Of a DNA stretch of 64,000 nucleotides, positions 52,943-63,420 are shown in pieces. The first letter of the stretch is position 1, and every line of letters begins with the position of its first letter. Made by a program: the position numbers and the translations under genes. Source of the DNA: Candidatus Deferrimicrobiaceae bacterium (GTDB lineage Bacteria; Desulfobacterota; Deferrimicrobia; Deferrimicrobiales; Deferrimicrobiaceae); NCBI GenBank assembly GCA_036504035.1, contig DASXVV010000002.1, positions 124,001-188,000 of the forward strand, given 5' to 3'. The notes under the pieces were generated by a model. The model ran no database searches. It was not told the DNA's origin and was given only the letters and a program-made list of their open reading frames with translations.

Positions 52943-53264
52943 GCAAAAGGATTTCAGGGGACATTTGCCTGCATCACAATCCCGTAATCCGCACCTCTCT
53001 TTAATTTCAGAACTGTTCTCGATAAGCTGGTGTCAGCCATGCCCCCTGTTTTACCGAATCAGGAATTCAGTGCAATAACGGATGACTACAAGCAGCGGCT
53101 CGACCGGACCCATTTTTGGCATGATCGATGCGTAAGACCTCCGTATCCGAAACGTTCGTTAGATTTTGCACGACCCGGCACTCAGGCCATGCTGCGTGAA
53201 CAAGGCGTTGGGAACCTTCGCGCCCGCCGGGAACCGATACCTTTCCATAGGGGGCAGGAGAACC
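52943..53264. other. Intergenic stretch between rpsB and the ASH-repeat protein
   Basis: About 320 bp without a gene. The only promoter-like feature seen for the rightward gene is a sigma-54-like pair at 53117-53131: TGGCAT, then GC placed ten bases after the GG. The -12 element is weak (ATGC rather than TTGC). I see no known riboswitch in it. Confidence 0.4.
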
Positions 53265-55559
53265 ATGACACAAGGAAACGGAAAACGGCTCTTCGGGATT
53301 TTCGCACTGATGATCGGGCTGCTGGCAGTCTCGGGGGGGGCTGCGCACGCATCCCCCGGCTACCTGACCAGTTTCAATACACAATACGGGACCTCGGCGA
53401 CGAGGCTCAACACCTGCACGCTGTGCCATACGAGCCCGCCGGCGCTCAATCCGTACGGAAGCGCCTTTGCGGCCGCCGGGCATAGTTTCACCGCGATCGA
53501 GGCGGCGGATTCCGACGGGGACGGCTACACGAACCTGGTCGAAATCAAGGCGCTCACCTTCCCGGGCGACCCGGCGGACCATCCGGCTGCAACGACCGGA
53601 AGCCCTGCGATCTCGCTCTCGCCGGCCTCCGACGCCTTCGGCAGCGTCACCGTGGGCCTTTCTTCCGCCCCGGCGATAACGACCATCACGAACAGCGGCA
53701 CGGCGAGCCTTTCCGTGACCGGCATGACGCTCTCCGACACGGCGGACTACGCCCTCAACGTCAACGGCGGCACGAACCCGTGCGGCAGCACCGCCAAGGC
53801 GCTGGCCGCGGGCGCGAACTGCACCGTGGCCGTCACGTTCAGCCCGAAATCGGCGGGCAGCCTCCCGGGCACCCTCACGATCGCTTCGAACGATGCGGCC
53901 AAGCCGTCCGCGGCCGTCTCGCTCACGGGAACCGGCGTGGTCGCGGCGGTCCCCAAGATCTCCGTCACCCCGGCATCCGACGCGTTCGGCAGCGTGACCG
54001 TCGGCGGCGCATCCACGCCGGCGATCTCGACCATCGCCAACACCGGAACCGCGGCGCTCGCCGTCAGCGGCATGACTCTTTCCAACGCAACCGACTACAC
54101 CCTCAATCTCAACGGTGGCGCGGCCCCCTGCGGAACCGCGGCGAAATCGCTGGCCGCCGGCACGTCGTGCACCGTAGCCGTCACCTTCAACCCGAAATCG
54201 GCAGGCGCGAAGACCGCGAGCCTCGCGGTCGCCTCGAACGACCCGTCCGCCCCGTCCACAACCGTCGCCCTGACCGGCACCGGCGCGACCGCGGCGGCGC
54301 CGAAGATCGCCGTCTCGCCCGCGAGCCTCGCGATCGGAAGCGTGACCGTCGGCGCGTCCTCCGCGCCCCAGACCGTCACCGTCTCCAATAGCGGAAACGC
54401 AAACCTCGCGGTCGGCAAGCTCACGCTCGGCGGCGCGAACGCCACCGAGTTCGGCCTGCAGAACGACCGCTGCTCCTCGCAGACGCTGGCTCCGGCCGCG
54501 ACCTGCACCGTGCAGGTCGTCTTCACTCCGTCCTCGGCCGCGGCGAAGGCTGCGACGCTGGCCATCCCCTCCAATGACGCCGCCACGCCGAACGTCGGCG
54601 TCTCCGTCAGCGGCACGGGTGTGACCCAAACCAACACGCCGCCGTCGGTCGTTTCGGTCATGCCGGCCTCCAACGCCGTCAACGTTTCACCGAACGCGTC
54701 CGTCAGCGCGGTCTTCAGCGAGACGATGAACGCCTCCAGCATCTCGACCTCGACCTTCACCCTTTCCGCCAACGGCAGTCCCGTGGCCGGGACGGTCGCG
54801 TACTCCGGCACCACCGCCACCTTCACCCCCGCGGCCCCTCTGGCCGCCGGGACGGTCCACACGGCGACGGTCACCACCGGCGCGCAGGACCTGGGCGGCG
54901 CCGGGATCGCGTCCAACTATGCCTGGAGCTTCACGACCCTCTCCGCGGTCGACAACACCGATACCGACGGCGACGGCATCGTCGACAAGGATGACGATTA
55001 CCCGAACGACAACCGGAGAGCGACGCCCCACTCGAGCCATGGAACAGGGAAGGTCAAGATCGACGTCTCCTCGATCCTCGGAGCCTACATGACCGAGGTC
55101 CAGGCCATGCCGGAAGGCACGCACGGAGGCAATCCGGCCGGCTACCACTTCAACGACGGCCTGTTCTCCTTCAAGATCAACCACGGCTCCGGCGCCGCCA
55201 CGGTCACGCTGACCTTCGGCGAGGCCGTACCCGCCGGGAGCAAGGTCTTCATGGTCACCTCCTCCGGGTACAAGGAAATCCCGGGCGCCGTCATCTCCGA
55301 CAACACCGTGACGATCCCCGTCCTGCCCACCACCGTGACGGGCGCTTCGACGACCTCGCTCACGATGGGCGGCACCGGCACGGCCACCGCGAACATCGTC
55401 GGCGTGGCCTCCCCGGACGCGGCTGCAACCGCCGCATCGGGCGGCGGCTGCAGCGCGACCGGCACCGCGTCGGGCGTTCCCGACGGCGGCCTGGCCGGCC
55501 TGCTGCTCATCGGCGCCGGCCTCCTGGTCCGGCGCAAGATGTCCGTCATCCGCCGGTAA
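53265..55559 (+). CDS. Exported multidomain ASH-repeat protein with CxxCH motif and C-terminal sorting signal
   Basis: 764 aa from the ATG of MTQGNGKRL, which has AGGAGA upstream. Signal peptide, then a single haem-attachment motif CTLCH (about residue 50) and a calcium-binding DSDGDGYTN repeat. Three choice-of-anchor-D/ASH repeats follow (each ..ASDAFGSVTVG...NSGTA...CTVAVTF.PKSAG), then a Big_5 domain, DTDGDGIVDKDDDYPNDN (type 3 thrombospondin) and a beta-rich domain. The C-terminus SGGGCSATGTASGVPDGG, hydrophobic segment, RRK is a Cys-containing sorting signal of the MYXO-/JDVT-CTERM kind. Probably surface-displayed. Role unknown. Confidence 0.85.
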   Translation: MTQGNGKRLFGIFALMIGLLAVSGGAAHASPGYLTSFNTQYGTSATRLNTCTLCHTSPPALNPYGSAFAAAGHSFTAIEAADSDGDGYTNLVEIKALTFPGDPADHPAATTGSPAISLSPASDAFGSVTVGLSSAPAITTITNSGTASLSVTGMTLSDTADYALNVNGGTNPCGSTAKALAAGANCTVAVTFSPKSAGSLPGTLTIASNDAAKPSAAVSLTGTGVVAAVPKISVTPASDAFGSVTVGGASTPAISTIANTGTAALAVSGMTLSNATDYTLNLNGGAAPCGTAAKSLAAGTSCTVAVTFNPKSAGAKTASLAVASNDPSAPSTTVALTGTGATAAAPKIAVSPASLAIGSVTVGASSAPQTVTVSNSGNANLAVGKLTLGGANATEFGLQNDRCSSQTLAPAATCTVQVVFTPSSAAAKAATLAIPSNDAATPNVGVSVSGTGVTQTNTPPSVVSVMPASNAVNVSPNASVSAVFSETMNASSISTSTFTLSANGSPVAGTVAYSGTTATFTPAAPLAAGTVHTATVTTGAQDLGGAGIASNYAWSFTTLSAVDNTDTDGDGIVDKDDDYPNDNRRATPHSSHGTGKVKIDVSSILGAYMTEVQAMPEGTHGGNPAGYHFNDGLFSFKINHGSGAATVTLTFGEAVPAGSKVFMVTSSGYKEIPGAVISDNTVTIPVLPTTVTGASTTSLTMGGTGTATANIVGVASPDAAATAASGGGCSATGTASGVPDGGLAGLLLIGAGLLVRRKMSVIRR

Positions 55560-55680: not shown

Positions 55681-58002
55681 TCAGCCGGCCCTCACCCTGT
55701 CGTCCAGCAGTTCGCCCAGCGTCCGGATCAGTGCGTCGTCCCTGTACGGCTTGGGGACCGCCGCCCGGAAACCGTAATTCCGGTAATCGGCCATGACGGG
55801 GTTGTTCGAGTAGCCGCTGGAGACCACCAGGACCGCCTCGGGATCGAACGCCAGGATCCGCTCGGCGACCACCCGGCCGTCAGGGCCTGCCGGTAGCGTC
55901 AGATCGAGGATCGCCGCGGAGAACGGCGTCCCGTTCGTCTTCGCCTCCCGGTAGAGGTCGACCGCCGCATCCCCGTGCTCGCAGGCGGTCACGCGATAGC
56001 CGAAATACTCCAGCGTCTCCCGGGCGAGAACCCGGATCAATTCCTCGTCGTCGAGAAACAGGATGGAGCGCCCGTTTCCTCTTGCCGGCGACGGCCGCTC
56101 CGGATCGGTCGGGTCGTCAGGGAGCACCGATCCGATCGACGGGAGGTGCAACGTGAAGGTCGCCCCGCACCCGACCTCGGATTGGACGGTGATGACCCCG
56201 CCGTGCCGCTCGACGATCGACCGGACCGAGGCGAGCCCGAGCCCGCTCCCGACGCCCGCCTTGGTCGTAAAGTAGGGATCGAAGATCTTCTCGCGCATTT
56301 CCTCGGGAATGCCGCATCCGGAGTCGGAGATGGCTATTCGCACGTATTCGCCCGGAGGCAGGCTTGGCGGCGACGCGGAAGGACAGACGTTCTCGCAGCG
56401 GATGGCGATCTTCCCTCCGTCCGGCATCGCCTGGACCGCATTGATGAGCAGGTTGTTGAAAACCTGCCCCAGCTGCCCCTCGTCCGCTTCGATCCCGCGC
56501 AGACCCGGCGGGATCTCGATCGATGCGCCCACGCGCGTTCCCACCAGCGCCAGCGACACCGCATCCTCGAGGACCTTCCCCACGGAAATCGACGCCTTGA
56601 CCGGCTCCCCGCCCCGCGCAAACGTGAGGAGCTGGGCGGCGATGCCTGCCGCGGCGCGGGAAGCATTCTCGGCCTTGTCCAGCAGTTCCCGCGCCTTGGC
56701 GGGGTCGTTCAGCTTCCGGCGTGCGAAGCTGACATATCCCAGGATGGAGGTGAGGGCGTTGTTGAAATTGTGCGCGATCCCGCCTGCGAGGACTCCGAGC
56801 GTCTCCATCTTCTGGATCCGGATGATCCGTTCCTGCATCGCCTCTCGCTCGGTGATGTCCAGAAGCGTGACGACGACCCGCTCCTTCCGGACCTGGCTAC
56901 GGAAGATGATGCGCTTGACGGAGCCGTCCCGGCAGGTGACCTGCCCCTCGTAGGTCGCGACGTCGGCCCCCCGCTTCCGCGCGGCCCCGATTGCCGAATT
57001 CTTTGCCGCCAGCGCCTGCCGACGGGCTTCGGGGTCGGGATAAGCGCGGATAAACCAGTCGTCGACGGTGCGGATCTCCCCGTATTCGTATCCGAAGCTC
57101 TCGATCGTATACCGGTTCATGAACTGGACGTTTCCGGCCAGGTCGGTCCAGGCGATCCCGGCGGGCATCGCATCGAGGAGCTCCCGGAGCGTCCGCTCTC
57201 CTTCGCGCGCCTCCGTTTCCGCCGCGGCGCGCACCCGGATCTCGTCTTCGAGCGCGAGATGCAGCTTCCGGTTCTCCGCGTCCCGCGTCTTCAACGCCGC
57301 TGCGAGCTCGTTCACGTTGGCGGCCGCGAGCCCCAGCTCGCTTCCGGAATCGACAGGCAGCGGCCGGTCGTACTCGCCCTCCCGGATCGCGCCGATTCCG
57401 CGGAGCAGGCCGTCGAACGACCGCATCGCCCTCCGGAGAACCGGATAGCTGACGGCCGAGACAAGGAGCAGGAACAGGAAGGCGGCCGCGCCGGCGAACA
57501 GGGCGGCGTCCCGGGCCTGGCGGGAGAGGCGGACGGTCTCGTATTCGACCCGGATGGCGCCCAACAGCGTCTCGCCGACGCCGCCCTCGCCGGTGAGGAC
57601 CCGCTCGGGGGACGCCCCGGACGGATTGCGGCGCACCGGGACCGACAGGGGCAGCAGCGTTCCGGACGGGGAAGCGCCCGTCCTCTGGAGGTCGACCAGG
57701 ACAAGTCCCGTCCCGTCGAGGATCGTCGCCCGGCGGATTCCCGGTCGAGCGATCGCGAAGCGAGCGAGGTTCGCCAGTTCCTCCCGGTTCCCGGAGAACA
57801 GGGGTAGCCGGACGCTTTCGGCAAGACTCATCGCGGTCAGGCGCGCCATCGCTTCGTTGTGCCGACGATCCTCGCGGATCTCGGTGAAGATGTAGAGGGA
57901 ACAGACCAGCAGGGCGACGGCGGATGCAGTCAGCAGGAAGATGGCGACGAGCCGGCCGAGGAAGCTGTTACGGAGCGTTTCGATCTTGGACTGCAGTTTC
58001 AC
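55681..58002 (-). CDS. Hybrid sensor histidine kinase with PAS and C-terminal receiver
   Basis: 773 aa. Transmembrane helices near residues 16-36 and 168-188 flank a periplasmic sensor region; then HAMP, PAS (about 278-395, WTDLAGNVQFMN), and the phosphoacceptor motif GVLAGGIAHNFNNALTSILGY (His about 413). The HATPase N-box NNLLINAVQAM and GSGLGLASVRSIVERHGG follow, then a receiver domain with phosphorylatable Asp in AAILDLTLPAG (about 700). It lies downstream of the binding-protein gene in the same direction. No DNA-binding partner is present nearby. Confidence 0.92.
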   Translation of the reverse strand: MKLQSKIETLRNSFLGRLVAIFLLTASAVALLVCSLYIFTEIREDRRHNEAMARLTAMSLAESVRLPLFSGNREELANLARFAIARPGIRRATILDGTGLVLVDLQRTGASPSGTLLPLSVPVRRNPSGASPERVLTGEGGVGETLLGAIRVEYETVRLSRQARDAALFAGAAAFLFLLLVSAVSYPVLRRAMRSFDGLLRGIGAIREGEYDRPLPVDSGSELGLAAANVNELAAALKTRDAENRKLHLALEDEIRVRAAAETEAREGERTLRELLDAMPAGIAWTDLAGNVQFMNRYTIESFGYEYGEIRTVDDWFIRAYPDPEARRQALAAKNSAIGAARKRGADVATYEGQVTCRDGSVKRIIFRSQVRKERVVVTLLDITEREAMQERIIRIQKMETLGVLAGGIAHNFNNALTSILGYVSFARRKLNDPAKARELLDKAENASRAAAGIAAQLLTFARGGEPVKASISVGKVLEDAVSLALVGTRVGASIEIPPGLRGIEADEGQLGQVFNNLLINAVQAMPDGGKIAIRCENVCPSASPPSLPPGEYVRIAISDSGCGIPEEMREKIFDPYFTTKAGVGSGLGLASVRSIVERHGGVITVQSEVGCGATFTLHLPSIGSVLPDDPTDPERPSPARGNGRSILFLDDEELIRVLARETLEYFGYRVTACEHGDAAVDLYREAKTNGTPFSAAILDLTLPAGPDGRVVAERILAFDPEAVLVVSSGYSNNPVMADYRNYGFRAAVPKPYRDDALIRTLGELLDDRVRAG

Positions 58003-58077
58003 GCGTGTTGTCCCGTGGACAGGAATTTCCTGTATTTAACACGACAGGGAATCGAAGTCCAACGAATCCGGAGGCGA

Positions 58078-58938
58078 TTACCTTAATTCGGCGGGGATCT
58101 CGAGCCCGAGGTTCCGGGTCACGGTGTCGTTTGCGTGCAGCCGGACCTTGCGGGCGTCGAGCGCCATGGAACGGGCACCCACATGGGCCAGCAACACGGT
58201 CGCCAGCTCTCCGGCCTGGCGGCCGAGGTCCGTCCGGTCGATGTCGAGCGACATCGCCGCGCCCTTCGCCAGGTACTGCTCGCTGAAGGTCACCACCGGC
58301 ACCTTATGCCGGAGGGAGAAGCGGGAGAACGCCTCCAGCGTCTCGGCCGTCACGGCAGTGCCGTCGGGGAGCATCCAGAGCGCATCGACGGCGTCCTGCA
58401 TCTGTTCCAGGCGAGCGGCCGTTTCCTTCGGGGAGCGCACCTCGCGGACGACCAGCGTGATCCCGGACTGGTGCGCGGCCGCCCGTGCCCGCTTCAGATA
58501 ATGGCCCGTGCGGGCCGGGTCGTGGACAATCCCCACCCGCCGGACGCCGATGGCCTTGAACAGCTCGAGGTAGCGCTCGGGCGCCGGCAGCACGCCGACG
58601 CCGCCGACGGAGCCGGCCGGGCCCTTCGCCAGGTTCAGGCTCAGCGCCAGCAGCCCGACCACCGGTACCCGGTCGACCTTCCGGCTGGCGGCGAGCGCCG
58701 CGTCGCCGACGGCCAGTACCAGCCGCGGCTGCTCTTCCTTTACTACCCGCACCACGTCGACCTCGGCGTAGTCGGACAAAACGAGCGTTTGGACGGTCCC
58801 CTTGCACGCCGACCGGAAGCCGCGCAGCGACTCTTCATATGCCGCGCTCCGGCTCGACTGCACGACGAGGATGTCGGCGGCCCGGGCAGGCAGCGCACCC
58901 AGGACGAGGAGCGCGACGAGATATCTCAGCGCGCGCAT
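58078..58938 (-). CDS. ABC-type substrate-binding-like periplasmic protein
   Basis: 286 aa from the ATG that overlaps the TonB receptor stop (TGATG). Signal peptide LRYLVALLVLGALPARAADI; the mature part has the two-lobed pattern of uncharacterised ABC periplasmic components (PF04392-like): RLVLAVGDAALAASRKVDRVPVVGLLALSL, GVRRVGIVHDPARTGHYLKRA, LWMLPDGTAVTAETLEAF and VPVVTFSEQYLAKGA. No permease or ATPase gene is adjacent. It may serve as the ligand sensor for the hybrid kinase just downstream. Confidence 0.82.
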   Translation of the reverse strand: MRALRYLVALLVLGALPARAADILVVQSSRSAAYEESLRGFRSACKGTVQTLVLSDYAEVDVVRVVKEEQPRLVLAVGDAALAASRKVDRVPVVGLLALSLNLAKGPAGSVGGVGVLPAPERYLELFKAIGVRRVGIVHDPARTGHYLKRARAAAHQSGITLVVREVRSPKETAARLEQMQDAVDALWMLPDGTAVTAETLEAFSRFSLRHKVPVVTFSEQYLAKGAAMSLDIDRTDLGRQAGELATVLLAHVGARSMALDARKVRLHANDTVTRNLGLEIPAELR

Positions 58939-60818
58939 CAGAAGTTCCACCGCACGCCGCCCTCGAACCAGCGGGGCGTGTTGACGTACAGCTCGGCATC
59001 GGTCGTCTGGACGTTCGAGAAAAGGTTGCGTCCCGAGAAGAACAGCACGGGCGACAGTTCGGCCTGCGGCTTCACCTTCCACGAAAGGTGCAGGTCCCAG
59101 ACCATGCCCCGGCTGGCCGAGAGGTCTCCTTCCACCGCATTCCAGACGACGTGGCTACCGGTCAGGGCGCCCCGCACCCCGAGGTCGGCCTCGTCGTAAA
59201 GGATCCCCATTTTGAGCAGGTGGGAGGGGACCACCTGGCCGTTGGCGGTCTTGACCCGCGTCCCGGAGTCGGCATCCCTCGCGTAGGTGAAGGTGTAGCC
59301 GGCGGTCAGCGACAGTCCGAGCCAAGGCGCGGTGCGACCTTCCATCTCGAAGCCCTGCCGGTCCTGGTTGGATAACGTTCCGGGGCCGACCAACTCGATG
59401 TCGCGCAGCCGGTTGAAGAAATAGGTGCCCTTGATCCAGAGGAATGGCAACTCTTCGGACTCGAAACCCGCCTGCAGGGTCGAGACGTGCATCAAGTCAT
59501 GCTTCTGGACGGGGCTCGGCAGACCGTAACCGCGGGCGCCGTAAGCGCGCAGAAGCGTCTTCCCCGTCGCCTGCCAGGTCGCACCCAGAGTAACACTCGT
59601 GTAATCGCTGGCGATCCCGGTGTGGTCGAACCGAACGCCCGGGAGAACCGTCACGCGCCCGATGGAAAGCGTGCCGTTCGCGTAAGCCGCCCATCGGTTC
59701 CAGTCCCGGTCGAACCAGAGAACGGATGTGGGGGCGATCTGTTCCGATTTGGTCCGGTCGTGTCCGAATTCCGCCCCGGCTACCAGGTTCCGCGAGCTGT
59801 CGCCCCACGAGAGCCGCGCGCCGGCGCCCCGGCTCGACTCGTTGACCCGCGTGTATCGGTAGGGGAGGTTCTCGCCCGCAATTCGGTCGTTGAGGTCGGC
59901 CTCCCCCATGCGATCGAGGGCATACCCGTCCAGGTCGAGGGTGAGCCGCTCGGCCAGCGGCCTTGTGTACTTTAACGACCCGCTGGCCAGCGACCGGGAA
60001 GCATCGTCATGGACCGGCCACCCGCCGGTGGTCCCCTCATCCATCCCGTGGTGGTTGTTGTAGCCGGCTCCCCCGACCGTCAGTACGCCGCCGGCGGAAT
60101 CGCGCCAGACGACCTTGCCGGACGCGTGGTTCAACTCCGTGCCGTTGTTCGGGCGGAGGCCGTCCGATCGGATGTTGCCGCCGGCGAGGTAGTAGCCGAT
60201 GGACCCCGCCGCGCCGCTCAGCTCGAGCCGGCTGTCGGCGGTCGCCCGCCGGCCGATCGAGCCGGAAAGGAGCCCGCCGCTCGGCCGTTCCCAGTCCGGC
60301 GACTTCGTAACGATGTTGATCACGCCGCCGAGCGCCGACCCCCACGCGGCCGACGCCGCCCCCTTGACGATCTCGATCCGCTCGATCTGCTGCACCGGGA
60401 TCAGCCCCGGCTCGGCCATGTCGAGCTGGAAATCGTTCTGGCGGACGCCGTCCACGAGGACGAGGACGGTGGTGTTGTGCGTTCCTTGGATGCCGAAGAA
60501 AGTGAAGGTGGTCGGTGTGCGCAAGTAGTCGAGCTGGATGCCGGGAATCGTTTGAAGCACGTCCGCCAATGTGTGGGCGTTGAGACGAGCGATGTCGTCG
60601 GCGGTGACGACCGTGACGTTTTCGGCGATCTTCGAAGCCGGACGGGGAGATCGCGCGACGGGCGCCGCTTCGGGCGTCTCGTTATCGAGCCCCAGCGCCG
60701 ATGCGGGGGCGTCGGCGGCATACCCCGGCGCCACGCTGCAAAGCGAACACGCCAGCAGCACGAGGAGCAAAAGATGGGAAAACTTGTGCAGCAGATCTTC
60801 TCCCGGGGTGTAACGCAT
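58938..60818 (-). CDS. TonB-dependent outer-membrane receptor
   Basis: 626 aa. Signal peptide, plug domain (ENVTVVTADDIARLNAHTLADVLQTIPGI; VLVLVDGVRQNDFQ; IERIEIVKGAASAAWGSALGGVINI) and a 22-stranded-type barrel ending in the aromatic F of GVRWNF. It is BtuB/FepA-like in size; the ligand cannot be deduced. It heads an operon with the periplasmic binding-like protein and the hybrid kinase and is divergent from the RiPP genes. Confidence 0.93.
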   Translation of the reverse strand: MRYTPGEDLLHKFSHLLLLVLLACSLCSVAPGYAADAPASALGLDNETPEAAPVARSPRPASKIAENVTVVTADDIARLNAHTLADVLQTIPGIQLDYLRTPTTFTFFGIQGTHNTTVLVLVDGVRQNDFQLDMAEPGLIPVQQIERIEIVKGAASAAWGSALGGVINIVTKSPDWERPSGGLLSGSIGRRATADSRLELSGAAGSIGYYLAGGNIRSDGLRPNNGTELNHASGKVVWRDSAGGVLTVGGAGYNNHHGMDEGTTGGWPVHDDASRSLASGSLKYTRPLAERLTLDLDGYALDRMGEADLNDRIAGENLPYRYTRVNESSRGAGARLSWGDSSRNLVAGAEFGHDRTKSEQIAPTSVLWFDRDWNRWAAYANGTLSIGRVTVLPGVRFDHTGIASDYTSVTLGATWQATGKTLLRAYGARGYGLPSPVQKHDLMHVSTLQAGFESEELPFLWIKGTYFFNRLRDIELVGPGTLSNQDRQGFEMEGRTAPWLGLSLTAGYTFTYARDADSGTRVKTANGQVVPSHLLKMGILYDEADLGVRGALTGSHVVWNAVEGDLSASRGMVWDLHLSWKVKPQAELSPVLFFSGRNLFSNVQTTDAELYVNTPRWFEGGVRWNF

Positions 60819-60970
60819 GGTGCGTCGATGCGTAGTAATCCCTGGAATCGGAGGGGGGCAACGACAGAATGAGCCATTATTGATAACAAGTTCCCTTGCG
60901 AAAGTCTAGACGAAGATTGCATGCGACGATCCAACACCCGGACGGCAACGCCCGAAAGGAGGCACGGATC

Positions 60971-61090
60971 ATGGAAAACGAAACGCAGGAAACGGATGAA
61001 TGTGAAGTAGAGGTACTGGTGGAGGGTCAGCTCGAGATCGAGGAAGTGTCAAGCTGCTGCACGGCGGGGACGCAAAGCTCCCGCAACTGA
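60971..61090 (+). CDS. RiPP precursor peptide (geopeptide-like)
   Basis: 39 aa, with AAAGGAGG 8 nt upstream of the ATG. The leader is strongly acidic (MENETQETDECEVEV, LVEGQLEIEEV) and the core is SSCCTAGTQSSRN, rich in Cys, Ser and Thr. It directly precedes a radical SAM/SPASM protein, the usual geometry of radical-SAM-modified peptides. The maturase pairing and core type suggest the geopeptide group known from Geobacter; that name rests on memory of the family, the precursor call on sequence and context. Confidence 0.82.
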   Translation: MENETQETDECEVEVLVEGQLEIEEVSSCCTAGTQSSRN

Positions 61091-61112
61091 GGCCCCTTAA
61101 CCCGCTGAATCC

Positions 61113-61134
61113 GGGGGAAGCAATTGCTTCCCCC
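61113..61134. terminator. 22-bp perfect palindrome between precursor and maturase
   Basis: GGGGGAAGC-AATT-GCTTCCCCC is a perfect stem-loop 22 bp after the precursor stop. It lacks a T-run, so it is more likely an attenuator or RNA-stabilising hairpin giving more precursor than maturase mRNA than a full terminator. Confidence 0.65.
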
Positions 61135-61164
61135 TCCCGCCCTGATTCCCATGGAGACTCCGTC

Positions 61165-62463
61165 GTGCCGCTTTCCCGATATCACGTGTGCTTTTCCGAC
61201 CCGGACCGCCCCGGATTCTCGCTCCTCTACTCGACGAAAAAAGGATCGCTGGTCCGACTCGCCGACCGGCGAATTGCCGCCATCCGGAACGGTAACCCGA
61301 CCGACGCCGAGCGCGCCACGCTGGGCCGGCTGGAACTGTGGACCGATGATCCGGACGCCGAGCGGACCGACATGGCCGGCCTCGTCGACCGCACCAATGC
61401 CGCAAGCCGCCGTTTCGCCGCGACGGTCGTCCTGACGCTGGACTGCAACCTGGCGTGCCCCTACTGCTTCGAGGGGAATTTTCGCGACGGGGGGACCATG
61501 GACGAGGCCACCGCCCGTCTGCTGGTGGAAGTCGTCGTCCGGGAACAGATCGGCCGGGGACGCGACGTGGAGATCCGCTTCTATGGCGGCGAGCCGCTGA
61601 TGGCGGTCCCCCGCCTGAAGGCGATCGCCCGGCCGTTGCAGGCGGCGGCCGCTTCGCACGGAACGCAATTTTCCATGAGCCTGGTCACCAACGGCACGCT
61701 GCTGACCCGCCCGCGGGTCGAGGAACTGCTTCCGCTGGGACTGGCCGGCGCCCAGGTCACGCTGGACGGCTCTGCGGCGATCCACGACCGGCAGCGCCCG
61801 TACGCCTCCGGCCACGGGAGCTACCGGGATATCCTGGCCAACGTCGCCGCGGTCCACGATCTCGTGCCGCTCAAGCTCGGCGGCAATTTCAACCCCGACA
61901 ATTACCGCGATTTTCCACGGATGCTGGACGACCTGCTGGCTGCCGGGGTCGCCCCCGCCCGGCTCGGCCCGGTCCAGTTCGCCCCGATCCTGCCCAGGTC
62001 GGGACGCCCGGCGGTCGGTGACGTCTGCGGGTGCGTTTCGGCCGGAGACGACCCGTGGCGAATCGATGCGGCGCTGTTCCTGCGGGAGGAGACGCTGAAG
62101 CGGGGCTTCGCGGTGGACAAGCCGGCGATGGGAATCTGCATGGTCGAGCTGGAAAACCGCTGGGTGGTCGACCGGAACGGGGCGCTGTACAAGTGCCCCG
62201 CATTCATGGGGTGGCCGGAAATGGCCGTGGGTACCTTGGCGGAGGGGATCGGCGATTTCCGCGACTCCCACCGCCTCGGATTCTGGCAGGAAGACCGATG
62301 CCTCGACTGCCGCTACCTGCCGCTTTGCTTCGGCGGCTGCCGGCTCCTTCCCATGCTTCGCGAGGGAGCCATCGACGAACCCGATTGCCGGAAGGCGTAT
62401 TACGACGCCGCCCTGGAGAAGATCGTCCGGATGGACCAACGGTACCGAATTCAGGCCCGGTGA
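61165..62463 (+). CDS. Radical SAM/SPASM peptide maturase (geopeptide type)
   Basis: 432 aa from the GTG of VPLSRYHVCF, with GGAGA 7 nt upstream. An N-terminal leader-recognition-like region (about residues 1-85) precedes the radical SAM motif LDCNLACPYCFEGNF (Cys 94, 98, 101) and FYGGEPLM. The C-terminal SPASM region has GNGALYKCPAFMG-like (RNGALYKCPAFM) and CLDCRYLPLCFGGCRLLP cysteines for auxiliary clusters. It would install a crosslink, probably thioether or carbon-carbon, on the upstream 39-aa peptide. No exporter or protease follows. Confidence 0.92.
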   Translation: MPLSRYHVCFSDPDRPGFSLLYSTKKGSLVRLADRRIAAIRNGNPTDAERATLGRLELWTDDPDAERTDMAGLVDRTNAASRRFAATVVLTLDCNLACPYCFEGNFRDGGTMDEATARLLVEVVVREQIGRGRDVEIRFYGGEPLMAVPRLKAIARPLQAAAASHGTQFSMSLVTNGTLLTRPRVEELLPLGLAGAQVTLDGSAAIHDRQRPYASGHGSYRDILANVAAVHDLVPLKLGGNFNPDNYRDFPRMLDDLLAAGVAPARLGPVQFAPILPRSGRPAVGDVCGCVSAGDDPWRIDAALFLREETLKRGFAVDKPAMGICMVELENRWVVDRNGALYKCPAFMGWPEMAVGTLAEGIGDFRDSHRLGFWQEDRCLDCRYLPLCFGGCRLLPMLREGAIDEPDCRKAYYDAALEKIVRMDQRYRIQAR

Positions 62464-62508: not shown

Positions 62509-63420
62509 TTACGGCAGGCGGCCGGCCTTTCGGAGCGTGTCGAGGATCTCGCGGATTTTGGGCAGCGCCGCCGTGGCGGCCTTCTCGCCCTCGAAAATGG
62601 CGTCGTTGCGCCTCGTGAAATCGCCCGAGGCGATGTGGCCGACCTTGGGACGGATGACGACGTCGGCCTTCTCGAGCTGCCGCTCGGACAGGCGGGCGTA
62701 CATGATGTTGACGGAGGTGAGGATGGCGTCGATCGTGCCGGTGGGGTCGGGGTTGTCCTTGCCGCCGCCGGAGATGTCGACGGCGATGACGACGTCGGCG
62801 CCCATGCGCCGGGCCGCGTCGACCGCGACCGGGCTGACGACCCCGCCGTCGATGTAGAGCGCGTCGCCGATCCGGACCGGGCGAAAAACGCCGGGCACCG
62901 AACAGGATGCGCGGACCGCCTGCCCCGTGTTGCCCCGGCCGAAGACCGTCTCCTGACCCTTGTGCAGGTCGGTCGCCACCGCGTAGAACGGGATCTTGAG
63001 CTTCTCGATCGGGACGTTGTTCACCGCCTTGTTGACGAACGCCTCGAGCTTCTCGCCCTTGACGAAGCCGACGTCGGGGATGCCCAGATCGGCCACGTCG
63101 TCGCGCTCAATGGCGAGCGCCATCTTCTGGAGCGTGAAGGCATCGTACCCCGAGGCGTAGAGCGCCCCGACGAAGCTGCCGGCGCTCGTGCCCACGACCA
63201 TGTCGATCGGAATTTTCTGGGACTCGAGCACCTTGAGCACGCCGATGTGGGCGAATCCCTTGGCGGCGCCGGAGCCGAGCGCCACGGCGATGCGGGCCGG
63301 CCGCGGGGGCGGCGCGACGACCACCGGCGGGGTGGGCGTGTGGGCGCAGGCGGACAGGAACGCGCCCGCCGCCAGGATGAAGGAACGGAACCTGCTCTTC
63401 ATGTCGTCGATGACGGGCAT
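62509..63420 (-). CDS. Patatin-like phospholipase lipoprotein
   Basis: 303 aa. Lipoprotein-type signal ending AAGAFLSAC, then a Pro-rich linker and a patatin domain: oxyanion loop VALGSGAAKGFAHIGVL, nucleophile elbow VVGTSAGSFVGAL and catalytic Asp in YIDGGVVSPV. It is of the RssA/PlpD-like bacterial group and probably hydrolyses lipids in the envelope. The ATG at 63420 has GGAGGGGG upstream; the ATG at 63402 is an alternative. Confidence 0.92.
   Translation of the reverse strand: MPVIDDMKSRFRSFILAAGAFLSACAHTPTPPVVVAPPPRPARIAVALGSGAAKGFAHIGVLKVLESQKIPIDMVVGTSAGSFVGALYASGYDAFTLQKMALAIERDDVADLGIPDVGFVKGEKLEAFVNKAVNNVPIEKLKIPFYAVATDLHKGQETVFGRGNTGQAVRASCSVPGVFRPVRIGDALYIDGGVVSPVAVDAARRMGADVVIAVDISGGGKDNPDPTGTIDAILTSVNIMYARLSERQLEKADVVIRPKVGHIASGDFTRRNDAIFEGEKAATAALPKIREILDTLRKAGRLP

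Follow-up and report, generated by a model that had tools for sequence, protein, structure and literature searches.

The window analyzed here, a stretch of 64,000 nucleotides from a Candidatus Deferrimicrobiaceae bacterium, carries a geopeptide-type RiPP locus in which a short precursor gene and a radical SAM/SPASM maturase gene adjoin genes for a TonB-dependent receptor, a PF04392 binding protein and a sensor histidine kinase, a set that recurs around related maturases. From sequence comparisons, we read the geopeptide system as a small RiPP that has a receptor and a sensor of its own, and give this explanation as a whole a probability of roughly 0.55. The peptide-maturase pair is already known as a family; the partners reported here (receptor, binding protein and kinase) lie outside the two NCBIfam models that define geopeptides.

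The precursor ORF (60971-61090, forward strand) extends from an ATG at 60971 to a TGA at 61088-61090 and encodes the 39-aa product MENETQETDECEVEVLVEGQLEIEEVSSCCTAGTQSSRN; a ribosome-binding site, AAAGGAGG, lies at 60955-60962 on the same strand, 8 nt 5' of the ATG. The leader motif EVLVEG is followed by SS-CC-TAGTQSSRN. Against TIGR04229 (geopeptide), the peptide obtains 18.9 bits (E 9.7e-4), short of the curated cut-off of 30, so that on score alone it does not count as belonging to this family. This score is a poor guide at such a length: six precursors taken from other maturase loci include a single one that passes (32.5), and two of the five failures are narrow (29.9 and 29.2). Assignment of the precursor to the geopeptides is nonetheless plausible from its motif, its position and the conserved CC pair. 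Two homologues from the same genus read LEVLEEGQAGTE(D/E)LMACCK(A/G)G(T/S)GSAR(V/A).

The adjoining maturase gene (61165-62463, forward strand) starts with a GTG preceded by a GGAG 8 nt upstream, and encodes a protein of 432 aa that matches TIGR04280 (geopeptide radical SAM maturase) with 611.3 bits over model positions 1-427 of 428, the cut-off being 400. Hence, the enzyme does belong to a peptide-modifying SPASM family, and a small peptide with a leader motif and a CC pair near its C-terminus stands beside it. The 39-aa peptide, the strong ribosome-binding site, the 22-bp palindrome and the radical SAM/SPASM gene listed in a preliminary description of this locus are thus all present where it placed them. 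Its attribution to the geopeptide group stands firmly for the maturase and agrees with the build of the precursor, but not with the score of the latter. The cysteines of the radical SAM CxxxCxxC motif (C94, C98 and C101) and of the seven-Cys SPASM motif (C325, C344, C379, C382, C388, C392 and C408) are invariant in 20 homologues. A full-length structural model (pLDDT 90) has CteB as its nearest full-length solved structure, with which it aligns over residues 4-429 (Z 26.9, rmsd 4.5). Residues 1-71 are predicted to form three strands and three helices, and in this model the N-terminus appears RRE-like and may bind the leader. Given the proximity to CteB and the presence of PapB and CefB among the other high-scoring families, a thioether crosslink of the sactipeptide or ranthipeptide kind is plausible in the product. 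Among related loci, L080 (G512:C3, 1438175-1439059) has two maturase copies side by side, the first intact and the second truncated, and no CC precursor was found there; in-frame stops were flagged in the maturases of G419, G470 and G436.

Between the precursor and maturase genes, the perfect 22-bp palindrome GGGGGAAGCAATTGCTTCCCCC (61113-61134, forward strand) folds as an RNA hairpin with a 9-bp stem and an AATT loop. Of 56 loci tested, 47 have at this place a hairpin whose stem is stronger than in shuffled sequences (z>2; mean z 4.45). Stems are often GGGGAG/CTCCCC, and both sequence and loop vary among loci. A protein-binding site was considered and rejected, position and stem being kept while sequence and loop symmetry are not; conservation of the arms around a variable loop argues for an RNA hairpin instead. 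This element likely acts as a partial terminator or stabilizer that would give an excess of precursor over enzyme. Taken together, the 611-bit match, the CC peptides beside most maturases and the recurrent hairpin place the peptide-maturase association beyond chance. No enrichment of sigma-54 promoters over shuffles was observed 5' of the precursors, and no riboswitch, cobalamin riboswitches included, exceeded threshold between 54000 and 64000, where a SAM-VI match (E 0.55) is at the level of chance.

Comparison was extended to 66 maturase sites, drawn from 60 fetched wide regions, the window and two named loci (L007 and L086 are one locus). A peptide of the same build adjoins the maturase at 60 of them, so the conserved peptide expected from the preliminary description does exist: after the motif [VI]-L-[DE]-E-G, or one close to it, come a spacer that in most cases counts 8-12 residues, the CC pair, and a tail ranging over 7-15 residues and mostly of 8 or 9 (mode 8). 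While the Gly of the motif is kept in 60/60 precursors, the invariance of CC is partly by construction, since CC was demanded when precursors were selected. The CCTAGT core that had been put forward as possibly invariant did not survive this alignment: only CC is conserved, TAGT is not, and the tails are hypervariable, ranging from polar (TGGTASARK) to hydrophobic (IYLYLYIGLI). Half of the precursors (30/60) have an Arg eight residues past CC; no His and no further Cys occur in the 60 tails, in which Asp accounts for 1.3% and Glu for 0.6% of residues. Two loci display unusual precursors. L051 (G415:C12) has only one Cys in place of CC in its related, geopeptide-like precursor (GICFGSYFIVRG). 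L085 (G442:C1:2263700-2281000) combines two tandem maturase genes, one receptor and three near-alike precursors with different tails (CCTAGSSNRT, CCGGGNSGRT and CCSAGNSNRT).

Clustering of the proteins encoded within 8 kb of the 66 sites revealed four recurrent families, namely the maturase, a TonB-dependent receptor (62/66), a PF04392 protein (57/66) and kinase-family proteins (54/66, from a loose BLAST cluster that includes response regulators); the next unrelated family occurs at 6/66 sites at most. Upstream sequence of 6.5 kb or more is available at 53 sites; of these, 50 have the receptor, 50 the PF04392 protein and 48 kinase-family genes, 44 have all three partners and only one lacks them all. 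A stricter count is confined to the 55 sites with the binding protein; at 38 of these, a kinase-family gene lies no more than 400 nt behind the binding protein gene, in the same orientation. Gene order varies by lineage between two arrangements, both of which keep all five genes: either the receptor, binding protein and kinase genes are divergent from those of the peptide and maturase, or the receptor gene is co-directional with the latter two, and the binding protein and kinase genes are divergent. Sigma-54 response regulators are found near 24/66 sites, and in L007, L077, L090, L110, L111 and L112 one of the NtrC type adjoins the module kinase, whereas the kinase of the window carries its own receiver domain. 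No exporter, leader peptidase, immunity gene or inner-membrane permease is recurrent in the neighborhood of the 66 sites.

In the window, the three partner genes span 55681-60818 on the reverse strand, divergent from the precursor gene. The receptor gene (58938-60818) encodes a 626-aa protein with a Plug domain (PF07715) and a 22-strand barrel; the start of the binding protein gene (58078-58938; PF04392, 58 bits) overlaps its end, and the kinase gene (55681-58002) encodes a membrane protein with HAMP, HisKA, HATPase and C-terminal receiver domains, according to Pfam. The preliminary statement that no exporter, protease or immunity gene is present holds for the conserved surroundings, but it passed over this receptor operon, about 150 bp upstream on the opposite strand; and calling the fate of the product open overlooked a conserved module standing next to it. 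Only two TonB plug proteins are encoded in the whole genome, and a single PF04392 protein; this locus accounts for the latter and for one of the former, which argues that their adjacency to the peptide is not due to chance. Modeling of the receptor (pLDDT 83) yields a plugged 22-strand barrel nearest to BtuB, with structural matches that include Cir, FhuA, siderophore receptors and PqqU. A plain vitamin B12 receptor was rejected (TIGR01779, 90 bits for a cut-off of 599.7; no cobalamin riboswitch nearby). The N-terminal STN signaling domain of FecA-type receptors was looked for in this protein and not found: Pfam finds Plug only, and the model leaves residues 30-61 disordered. NF041285 gave a weak match, and relatives of the PF04392 protein are annotated as tryptophan-type binding proteins. 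Two further genes flank the locus. A large secreted-looking protein (53166-55559, forward strand), with repeated domains that by eye are of the choice-of-anchor type and a C-terminal sorting-like tail, ends just before the kinase gene. A patatin-like phospholipase gene (62509-63420, reverse strand) is convergent with the maturase gene and has no conserved link to the module.

A scan of genome contigs with a single protein returned only two close loci. TIGR04280 occurs in 102 of 141 Geobacterales genomes; a phylum-wide sample of 395 genomes has it in 30, and the order to which the window belongs in 3 of 24, all three of the same genus as the window. Within these 24, a close PF04392 binding protein is found in exactly the three maturase genomes. 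The window genome belongs to the same phylum as Geobacter but to a different order, outside Geobacterales; because its receptor nests with strong support among Geobacterales receptors in the receptor tree, its lineage probably acquired the module horizontally.

The receptor module also occurs by itself. Among the close binding proteins of Geobacterales, 95 of 150 are encoded within 10 kb of a maturase and 55 are not. Of these 55 unlinked loci, 20 were fetched; in 19 of them both peptide and maturase are absent, and most keep the receptor and a kinase. Unlinked receptors are scattered in the receptor tree, whose supported branches force at least eight changes. Maturases seldom lack a receptor or binding protein, whereas receptors often lack the peptide; a shared extracellular molecule would be expected to give this pattern, which is also compatible with a receptor that has a second ligand. 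Loci L134-L153 have the receptor and the PF04392 protein, mostly with a kinase, and no peptide or maturase; the near-complete genomes G501, G509 and G406 carry such receptors with no maturase match and could be eavesdroppers.

Co-variation was analyzed over 45 loci by correlating distances in Mantel tests. Tail distance follows receptor distance given the maturase (r 0.33, p 0.0002) and not maturase distance given the receptor (r 0.08), and the opposite holds for the leader (r 0.33 for the maturase, 0.12 for the receptor). Against a null simulated along a single concatenated tree, the tail-receptor correlation alone is expected from shared history (P 0.37), whereas the leader-maturase correlation exceeds it (P 0.003-0.01) and the combined leader/tail contrast is mildly unusual (P about 0.02). 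In light of this simulation, Mantel tests were rejected as sole evidence of tail-receptor co-evolution. Tail co-variation above the null is located mainly in the predicted extracellular loops L3 and L4 of the receptor, residues 255-329 (max-minus-median P 0.011; P 0.15 in the 40-residue window version of the same test), which is suggestive and falls short of proof. Overall, the pairing of receptor and peptide appears supported by linkage and moderately by co-variation.

These observations, of gene content, linkage, leader motif, hairpin and tail hypervariability, can be assembled into a scenario whose biochemical steps are all inferred. The putatively RRE-like N-terminus of the maturase would bind the [VI]LDEG motif of the leader, and the enzyme would then act on the short tail around its CC pair, most probably introducing one or more thioether crosslinks, while the intergenic hairpin would hold the precursor transcript in excess. 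Unlinked housekeeping functions would remove the leader and export the product; secretion is an assumption here, as neither an exporter nor a leader peptidase is linked. The linked TonB-dependent receptor could then capture the mature tail outside the cell and import it into the periplasm, where the PF04392 protein would bind it and the sensor kinase report its presence. Strict linkage, receptor-only loci and co-variation point to these uptake and sensing steps. Sensing is favored over feeding, as the binding protein comes with a kinase and a conserved inner-membrane permease is missing. The same missing permease, and a tail that is hypervariable around a fixed CC, make us prefer a kin-specific signal to a carrier of nutrients or metals. 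Pushed one step further, geopeptides could be kin-specific signals of Gram-negative anaerobes, with a crosslinked tail, a co-evolving TonB receptor, a binding protein/kinase readout and receptor-only eavesdroppers, a proposal that we advance tentatively and find somewhat doubtful in its full extent.

The closest competitor is a metallophore, in which the modified CC peptide would scavenge a metal such as copper or iron and be taken up with it through the receptor, the binding protein and kinase then signaling how much is available. Two adjacent conserved Cys, a receptor with the fold of BtuB, Cir and siderophore receptors, receptor-only loci such as those seen in siderophore piracy, and the precedent of methanobactin, a RiPP encoded beside a TonB-dependent transporter (PMC3621798), all speak for it. 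Nevertheless, the composition of the tails leaves no conserved metal-binding residue beyond CC, engagement of both Cys in thioethers would leave no thiol ligand, and no inner-membrane metal or siderophore permease recurs. Hypervariability of the tail favors specific recognition over metal chelation, and we regard a metallophore as unlikely.

Since the receptor module is found by itself at other loci, it may have another ligand, and the peptide could be a regulated product in place of that ligand. The product could then remain inside the cell as a cofactor or modified peptide, like PQQ or mycofactocin, while the module imports a different, regulating molecule, which would also account for the missing exporter and peptidase. 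Such use is rather improbable: a hypervariable tail is unlike a cofactor, the peptide and maturase nearly always adjoin the receptor across two arrangements, and PQQ itself is imported by the TonB-dependent receptor PqqU (PMC12124388). Even less probable is a narrow-spectrum antimicrobial that kills relatives through their homologous TonB receptor, as microcins do, with the kinase controlling production. TonB receptors are common gates for microcins and colicins, Cir and FhuA are among the structural matches, and a hypervariable tail would fit; however, the conserved set includes no immunity gene or exporter, a producer that keeps the receptor would be sensitive, and killing requires neither a binding protein nor a kinase.

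Bacteria of the Geobacter type are important in metal reduction and bioelectrochemistry, and geopeptides are a named family for which we found no described product or role in open papers. Our search of the open-access literature, whose coverage is limited and leaves subscription papers outside, returned no paper on geopeptide, TIGR04280 or a Geobacter SPASM maturase, a weak negative, and no description of the linkage to a TonB receptor, a PF04392 protein and a kinase. With this linkage, an orphan RiPP becomes amenable to testing. If geopeptides are signals, they would constitute a TonB-dependent peptide communication system, of which we know no earlier description.

Compared with the geopeptide family (TIGR04229/TIGR04280), the locus of the window agrees in its maturase, well above cut-off, and in the motif, size and CC of its precursor; it differs in its host, outside Geobacterales, and in a precursor below the TIGR04229 cut-off. 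PQQ is a product derived from a RiPP by a SPASM enzyme and taken up by a TonB-dependent receptor (PMC12124388), PqqU being among the structural matches of our receptor; yet PQQ is an invariant cofactor, and the receptor reaches only 24.6 bits against the PqqU model, for a cut-off of 1200. Methanobactin operons place a short Cys-containing RiPP with a variable core, MbnA, beside the TonB-dependent transporter MbnT (PMC3621798), an association shared by our locus. However, they rely on MbnB/MbnC and a MATE exporter and signal through FecIR-type genes, whereas here a radical SAM enzyme, a binding protein and a histidine kinase are found; the neighbors of the window precursor are these proteins, the receptor and the patatin-like protein, with no MbnB/MbnC. 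Finally, ranthipeptides and sactipeptides (CteB, PapB, SCIFF) share with the geopeptides a SPASM maturase, whose N-terminus in the window enzyme may likewise be RRE-like, CteB being the nearest full-length structure to our model. The window system is distinguished by a single CC pair without a Cys-repeat core, by its Gram-negative context and by a linked TonB receptor in place of an ABC exporter or protease. A part in quorum sensing has been reported for SCIFF-derived ranthipeptides (Chen et al., 2020, as cited in PMC8326336), and geopeptides could perhaps resemble them in role.
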